64,000 bases of DNA from NCBI RefSeq assembly GCF_024713945.1, contig NC_134678.1:806001-870000 (forward strand), read 5' to 3'. Positions 34,234-34,503 of this stretch are shown here, one piece after another. Made by a program: the position numbers and the translations under genes. The first letter of the stretch is position 1. The number at the start of each line of letters is the position of its first letter. The DNA is from Dermatophagoides farinae. Its lineage: Eukaryota; Arthropoda; Arachnida; Sarcoptiformes; Pyroglyphidae. Under the pieces are notes generated by a model. The model had not been told where the DNA came from, searched no databases, and saw nothing but the letters and a program-made list of their open reading frames with translations.

Positions 34234-34490
34234 GTCAAGATGCCCGAGTGGTTAAGGGGTTTGTTTCAGGCGGGTGTTTTTTATGGGTGTGGTACGCGTT
34301 GGGTAACATAAAAATTCTTAGTAACCAGAAAAAACAACTAATTCTCGCGAGAATTAGTGATTGTTGTTTCGTTTCAGGGGACAACATTTCTGGTTACCAT
34401 TTGATTATTAATCATTAATTAAGAACTTTATGTGATGATGAACATACAAATCGACGGAAGTCGGCGTGGGTTCGAATCCCACTCTTGACA
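34234..34490 (+). tRNA. tRNA-Leu(CAG) with about 174-nt intron
   Basis: All cloverleaf parts are present. Acceptor GTCAAGA (34234-34240) pairs perfectly with TCTTGAC (34483-34489), with discriminator A at 34490. D-stem is CCC/GGG (34243-45/34256-58). Anticodon stem TTTGT (34260-64) pairs with ACAAA (34446-50). The anticodon is CAG at 34267-69. Variable arm is CGAC-GGAA-GTCG (34452-63), and the T-arm GTGGG-TTCGAAT-CCCAC is at 34466-82. The long variable arm and discriminator A fit leucine. The canonical B box GGTTCGAATCC is intact. The 34271-34444 segment sits just after position 37, the standard place for eukaryotic tRNA introns, but is far longer than usual. A T7 terminator follows at 34497. 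The intron also has a T6 run at 34277 that could stop Pol III, so a decayed copy is possible. Confidence 0.78.
34271..34444 (+). repeat. Structured intron of tRNA-Leu with nested inverted repeats
   Basis: Nested complementary arms: CATAAAAATTCTTA (34307-34320) with TAAGAACTTTATG (34420-34432), GTAACCAGAAA (34321-34331) perfectly with TTTCTGGTTAC (34387-34397), and a perfect 20-bp palindrome around TCGCGA at 34338-34357. The 5' exon word GTTTCAGG (34263-34270) recurs at 34371-34378. The terminal inverted symmetry resembles a small fold-back (MITE-like) insertion, but no target-site duplication is evident. Confidence 0.65.
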
Positions 34491-34496
34491 AAATGG

Positions 34497-34503
34497 TTTT
34501 TTT
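34497..34503 (+). terminator. Pol III terminator of tRNA-Leu
   Basis: T7 run starting 7 bp after the tRNA 3' end, as expected for RNA polymerase III termination. Confidence 0.65.

Follow-up and report, generated by a model that had tools for sequence, protein, structure and literature searches.

The window, by which we mean the whole 64-kb stretch of DNA analysed (C2:806001-870000 of the assembly), carries a complete tRNA-Leu(CAG) gene at 34234-34490 (+) once the 174 nt that follow position 37 are excluded. The gene was read in the sequence and recovered by both ARAGORN and a custom cloverleaf scanner. At its usual settings ARAGORN finds no tRNA in the window. With introns of 0-300 nt allowed, a long-intron search of the kind that an earlier sequence-only reading had proposed with tRNAscan-SE, it returns exactly one in the 64 kb, Leu(cag) with an intron of 174 nt. 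That reading had described a tRNA-Leu(CAG) whose arms are all perfect but which is split behind position 37 by about 174 nt; the description holds and its coordinates proved exact. The gene sits in a 710-nt gap between two same-strand genes, which we take to encode UTP25-like and U1A/snf-like proteins.

The 5' exon (34234-34270, +) comprises positions 1-37, with the anticodon CAG at 34267-34269 and a 17-nt segment, TGCCCGAGTGGTTAAGG (34241-34257, +), which we take from the sequence to be the A box of the internal Pol III promoter. The 3' exon (34445-34490, +) comprises positions 38-73 and includes the long variable arm, the T arm, the acceptor strand and a B box, GGTTCGAATCC (34469-34479, +), located by pattern search. 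Downstream lies a run of seven T (34497-34503, +) that is likely the Pol III terminator. The scanner paired the acceptor stem GTCAAGA/TCTTGAC at 7/7 positions, the anticodon stem TTTGT/ACAAA at 5/5 and the T stem GTGGG/CCCAC at 5/5, and it assigned a D stem of CCC/GGG, a variable arm of 15 nt and the anticodon CAG. The locus thus has the cloverleaf, long variable arm, leucine anticodon, A and B boxes and T-run of a nuclear eukaryotic tRNA-Leu gene.

The scanner requires all four stems, A14, GG in the D loop, U33 and a B box, and it permits an intron only at 37/38; ARAGORN placed the Leu(CAG) intron there without such a restriction. We used a cut-off of 57, and all 50 intron-containing genes described below score at least 57.8. 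In the second version of the scanner Leu(CAG) scores 68.2 and is the sole match in the window at or above 57. Random sequence from a first-order Markov model, 1.28 Mb in all, gave no match at or above this cut-off, and we therefore rejected a chance cloverleaf.

The 174-nt intron (34271-34444, +) occupies the canonical 37/38 position according to both ARAGORN with long introns and the scanner. Sequence and folding place its main hairpin at 34321-34397 (+), where GTAACCAGAAA (34321-34331) pairs with TTTCTGGTTAC (34387-34397) around the palindrome ACTAATTCTCGCGAGAATTAGT (34338-34359). The nested inverted repeats noticed earlier are therefore real, and the whole pre-tRNA folds with a z of -4.0. 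Near the 3' end, intron bases -6 to -3 (TGAA, 34439-34442, +) can pair with positions 32-35 (TTCA, 34265-34268). In this predicted anticodon-intron helix the proximal pair is U32-A(-3), which leaves a 3-nt bulge across the 3' cut. The 37/38 site, the 32:-3 pair and the 3-nt bulge are the features of a TSEN-type intron. The free fold is about 5 kcal/mol better than the fold with the splicing helix enforced. At 174 nt the intron lies outside the published eukaryotic range of 6-133 nt, which describes what is usual and is not a requirement. We rejected a Group I intron because a search of the whole window gave no Rfam match at gathering score, and a spliceosomal intron because the ends read CGGGTG...GAACA and not GT...AG.

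We then examined the tRNA genes of the assembly, which totals 62.4 Mb in 22 contigs. Ten of these, C1-C10, are large (3.3-9.2 Mb each, together 58.8 Mb). On them we found 55 complete tRNA genes, 50 of which have an intron of 12-231 nt at 37/38; the median over the first 47 introns is 56 nt. Some of the genes are recent duplicates with identical introns (two Met, three Arg(ACG) and two Tyr genes), so we counted anticodons as well. Interrupted genes cover 36 of the 39 anticodons seen, including every one of the five Leu anticodons found. Only five genes lack introns: two Asn(GTT), one Val(TAC) and two Pro(TGG). The longest introns belong to Arg(CCG) (231 nt), Leu(CAG) (174 nt), Leu(TAG) (156 nt), Leu(TAA) (153 nt) and Glu(TTC) (140 nt), and these are the 5/50 that exceed 133 nt. 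A run of at least four T lies within 30 nt downstream of all 47 genes checked. The sequence-only reading had called the Leu(CAG) intron unusual. This stands when the gene is set against published animals, but not within its own genome, where 50/55 genes are likewise interrupted, a pattern that was missed because one window was read.

The Rfam tRNA model gave 62 matches in the assembly, 25 of them on C1-C10 and 20 of those 25 interrupted; none of the five Leu genes on the large contigs is among its matches. B-box pattern searches are blind to introns. The pattern GGTTCGANNCC occurs at 210 places (control 48); 97 of the 100 listed, which run through C5, were examined, all except C5:1827617, C5:3494025 and C5:4292963. 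For GGTTCGAATCC (39 places, control 2), GGGTTCRANYCCC (67 places, control 0), AGGTTCRANNCCT (22 places, control 17) and GAGTTCRANYCTC (17 places, control 2), we examined every place on C1-C10, namely 34, 40, 17 and 12, respectively. For YGGTTCRANYCCR (94 places, control 16), 36 of the 86 places on C1-C10 were examined. Scanning these stretches added 30 complete genes on C1-C10, and all 30 are interrupted. In the search with a control of zero, GGGTTCRANYCCC, the 40 places on C1-C10 resolved into 34 complete genes, 32 of them interrupted, and six orphan 3' halves. Genes for His, Trp, initiator Met, Val(AAC, CAC) and Ala(AGC) were not found in the C1-C10 stretches scanned, and the catalogue is thus incomplete. 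A second Leu(CAG) gene was found neither by whole-gene BLAST nor among the 34 GGTTCGAATCC places on C1-C10, and these contigs yielded no intronless Leu(CAG).

Orphan or 5'-truncated 3' halves were left out of the gene counts. We observed 3' halves without a 5' half for Phe, Ser, Tyr, Asn, Met, Asp and Gln, some of which retain the intron end; for most of them an intact gene is found 0.1-1.3 kb upstream (C1:3164810; C3:2090253; C4:783215 and 783564; C6:1125451, 1125603 and 2869237; C7:4522505, 4636408, 4636628 and 4728153; C9:1725157). The 3' exon of Leu(AAG) also occurs as three copies, at C1:2272044, C5:173230 and C9:1310757. Two of these start precisely where the exon resumes behind the intron, and the third starts two bases later. 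The copies at C1:2272044 and C5:173230 have flanking repeat blocks in common, and a frame at the C9:1310757 copy looks to us like a Ty3-type RNase H. One reading is that a retroelement was primed by a free 3' exon. The CCA that follows these copies is no evidence for it because the flank of the Leu(AAG) gene itself also reads CCA.

We next asked whether the introns resemble substrates of the animal splicing endonuclease. Positions 32 and -3 can form a Watson-Crick pair in 46/50 genes, with C-G in 40 and U-A in six, Leu(CAG) among the latter. The four without such a pair are Ala(TGC), which has U-G instead, Arg(TCG), Ala(CGC) and Thr(CGT). We shuffled introns among genes, using one gene per anticodon (n = 36) and 20,000 trials. 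The 32:-3 pair is present in 32/36 genes; the permutation mean was 22.5, and 32 was never reached in 20,000 trials. The best offset other than 32:-3 gave 17/36 paired. Pairing at 34:-5 (22/36, permutation mean 9.8, 0 of 20,000) and at 35:-6 (20/36, permutation mean 9.0, 2 of 20,000) was likewise in excess. Pairing at 33:-4 (19/36, mean 19) was no better than chance; position 33 is always U, so this count cannot change under shuffling. Judged by sequence, the introns resemble those that TSEN and RtcB ordinarily process in animals, and the match of their ends to their own anticodons goes far beyond permutation.

Our search for the splicing machinery covered TSEN2, TSEN34 and RtcB. A Sen2-like protein is encoded at C6:4826621 (E = 2e-22 to 8iss) and a Sen34-like protein at C3:5509422 (E = 1e-12 to 6z9u). 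RtcB is encoded at C1:141209-142581 (E = 2e-86 for the first segment) in adjoining, overlapping pieces in different frames, with a stop counted inside one piece. In this assembly a single break interrupts its reading frame near C1:141640, adjacent to a stretch of A, and may be an assembly error or a real lesion.

The twelve small contigs, C11-C22 (about 3.6 Mb by subtraction), serve as an internal control. Their tRNA set differs from that of C1-C10. In the small-contig stretches scanned, 27 of the 28 tRNAs reported by ARAGORN with long introns allowed have no intron, and the Tyr intron is 5 nt. The small contigs also carry their own TSEN-family gene and their own RtcB gene. By these features they look like a second, compact eukaryote. 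Neither protein families nor PDB matches gave a clear answer as to its identity. We also observed that the small contigs encode a cysteine-rich repeat protein with a weak Pfam match to the EB module and to nothing else; it presumably resembles apicomplexan oocyst wall proteins. On the large contigs, a protein encoded on C1 is similar to the mite allergens Der p 2 and Der f 2 alike (E ~1e-30), indicating that C1-C10 come from a mite related to house dust mites. A second Der p 2-like family member matches neither Der p 2 nor Der f 2.

Taking the gene, its genomic setting and the machinery together, we assign a probability of about 0.88 to the reading that the locus is a working nuclear tRNA-Leu(CAG), the sole one found on C1-C10, whose intron would be spliced out by the usual route for animal tRNAs. 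The A and B boxes would direct transcription by Pol III, which would end at the seven-T run. The TSEN endonuclease, with TSEN2 and TSEN34 as the cutting subunits, would measure from the tRNA body and use the U32-A(-3) pair. RtcB would then ligate the exons and may circularise the intron. Leu(CAG) shares this build with roughly 90% of the mite tRNA genes that we found.

Genes with the same anticodon show which of their parts are kept. The five Gly(GCC) genes have one mature sequence and five different introns. The mature sequence is also identical in the three Glu(TTC) genes, whose introns measure 31, 23 and 140 nt, and the two Ile(AAT) and the three Lys(TTT) genes likewise combine identical mature sequences with different introns. 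Exons are kept and introns drift. Several introns contain local tandem repeats or fold-backs. As a separate observation, CCGGAAG occurs on either strand in nine of 40 distinct introns, covering six amino-acid types, with four of the nine being Gly paralogues; about 0.13 would be expected from its 10 occurrences in 221 kb of other mite sequence. We take this motif to resemble an ETS-factor site and also tRNA anticodon-stem sequence.

The drift of the introns bears on a function for the intron itself. The Leu(CAG) intron might be retained for the sake of its own circular RNA (tricRNA), and in line with this an RtcB-type ligase gene is present and RtcB determines intron circularisation in flies (PMC6614914). 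A circular Leu(CAG) intron is plausible by analogy with flies. However, where genes share an anticodon, neither the sequence nor the length of their introns is conserved. This is not the pattern one would look for under selection on circles, and we regard retention for such a function as unlikely.

A dead tRNA-Leu(CAG) copy, disrupted by an insertion, is less likely still. Default tRNA finding does miss the gene, and truncated tRNA copies are present in this genome. Against this, every stem of Leu(CAG) is perfect, no other Leu(CAG) was found on C1-C10, and 49 other genes have an insert at exactly the same site. Several intact intronless Leu(CAG) genes elsewhere, together with a lack of spliced tRNA reads, had been named in advance as the sign of a dead copy. 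The only intronless one that we found lies on C14. We considered it as a rescue copy and discounted it, since the small contigs differ in their tRNA set and encode a TSEN-family protein and an RtcB of their own.

That a fold-back element, as the sequence-only reading suggested, or another mobile element was captured as the intron of Leu(CAG) alone is no more likely. The nested inverted repeats would fit it, but BLAST of the assembly, which skips very common words, found no other copy of the intron, and unlike introns in 36 anticodons would require many captures. Folded alone, the intron has a z of -2.3, which ranks ninth of the 37 distinct catalogued introns of at least 30 nt. Its folding is thus not exceptional in this genome, and with eight other introns folding more unusually we rejected an exceptional structure.

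That the interrupted genes belong to a contaminating organism and not to the animal is the least credible alternative: the assembly does seem to include a second organism, whose small contigs differ in their tRNAs and encode a separate TSEN-family protein and RtcB, but the interrupted genes lie on nine of the ten large contigs, which together make up 58.8 of the 62.4 Mb, these contigs bear the gene like the mite allergen Der p 2 (E = 1e-30), and the small-contig tRNAs are nearly uninterrupted.

As most of the tRNA genes found in the mite are interrupted in this way, the animal probably must splice most of its tRNAs before protein synthesis. A wider proposal, which we hold tentatively and would rate somewhat short of an even chance, is that the mite lineage, perhaps astigmatid mites at large, is saturated with tRNA introns. 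About nine in ten genes would need TSEN/RtcB and most codons would depend on splicing, introns would outgrow the length usual in eukaryotes through tandem and inverted duplications of local sequence, and circular RNAs could come from dozens of loci. Introns in animal tRNAs are treated as a minority feature whose purpose is unclear. Here most anticodons were found only in interrupted form, and in such an animal one can test directly how introns are gained, how they grow and how far the organism depends on TSEN/RtcB. Usual settings also under-count nuclear tRNA genes in such genomes, as the lack of ARAGORN hits here and the 0/5 Leu genes found by Rfam illustrate.

Both the saturation of an animal with tRNA introns and the length of these introns appear to be new. 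Among the open papers listed by our searches, no title or abstract opening describes a mite or other animal in which most tRNA genes have introns, or an animal with about 90% of its genes interrupted and introns of up to 231 nt; the pattern may be known elsewhere. The tRNA passages of scabies-mite, follicle-mite and sarcoptiform mitochondrial papers concern mitochondrial tRNAs or report no nuclear tRNA introns (PMC4641413, PMC9218549, PMC6006854).

The mite introns resemble canonical metazoan introns, such as those of Drosophila, in the 37/38 site, in a proximal pair six bases before the exon end and in the 3-nt bulge at the 3' cut (fly features from PMC6614914). Homologues of TSEN2, TSEN34 and RtcB, the enzymes of the canonical metazoan pathway, are encoded in the mite too, RtcB with its single frame break. 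The mite differs in the extent of interruption. Drosophila has 16 intron-containing tRNA genes (PMC6614914), and a review gives shares from 3.7% in the sea urchin (39/1068) to 92% in Cryptococcus neoformans (132/143; PMC4090602); in the mite, about 90% of the genes found and 36/39 anticodons are interrupted. Eukaryotic tRNA introns are given there as 6-133 nt long (PMC4090602) and are described elsewhere as short, <100 nt (PMC4033280), whereas the mite introns reach 231 nt. In its share of interrupted genes the mite set (50/55) is like that of C. neoformans (PMC4090602). However, plants and fungi join tRNA exons by "healing and sealing" (PMC6614914), so that the fungus uses another exon-joining pathway. 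The mite, an animal, has RtcB, and its tRNA set is small and its introns are longer. By analogy, the pathway that yields tricRNAs would produce them from the mite introns as well. Unlike the known tricRNA sources, which are few genes, the mite offers many possible source genes for circular tRNA introns.
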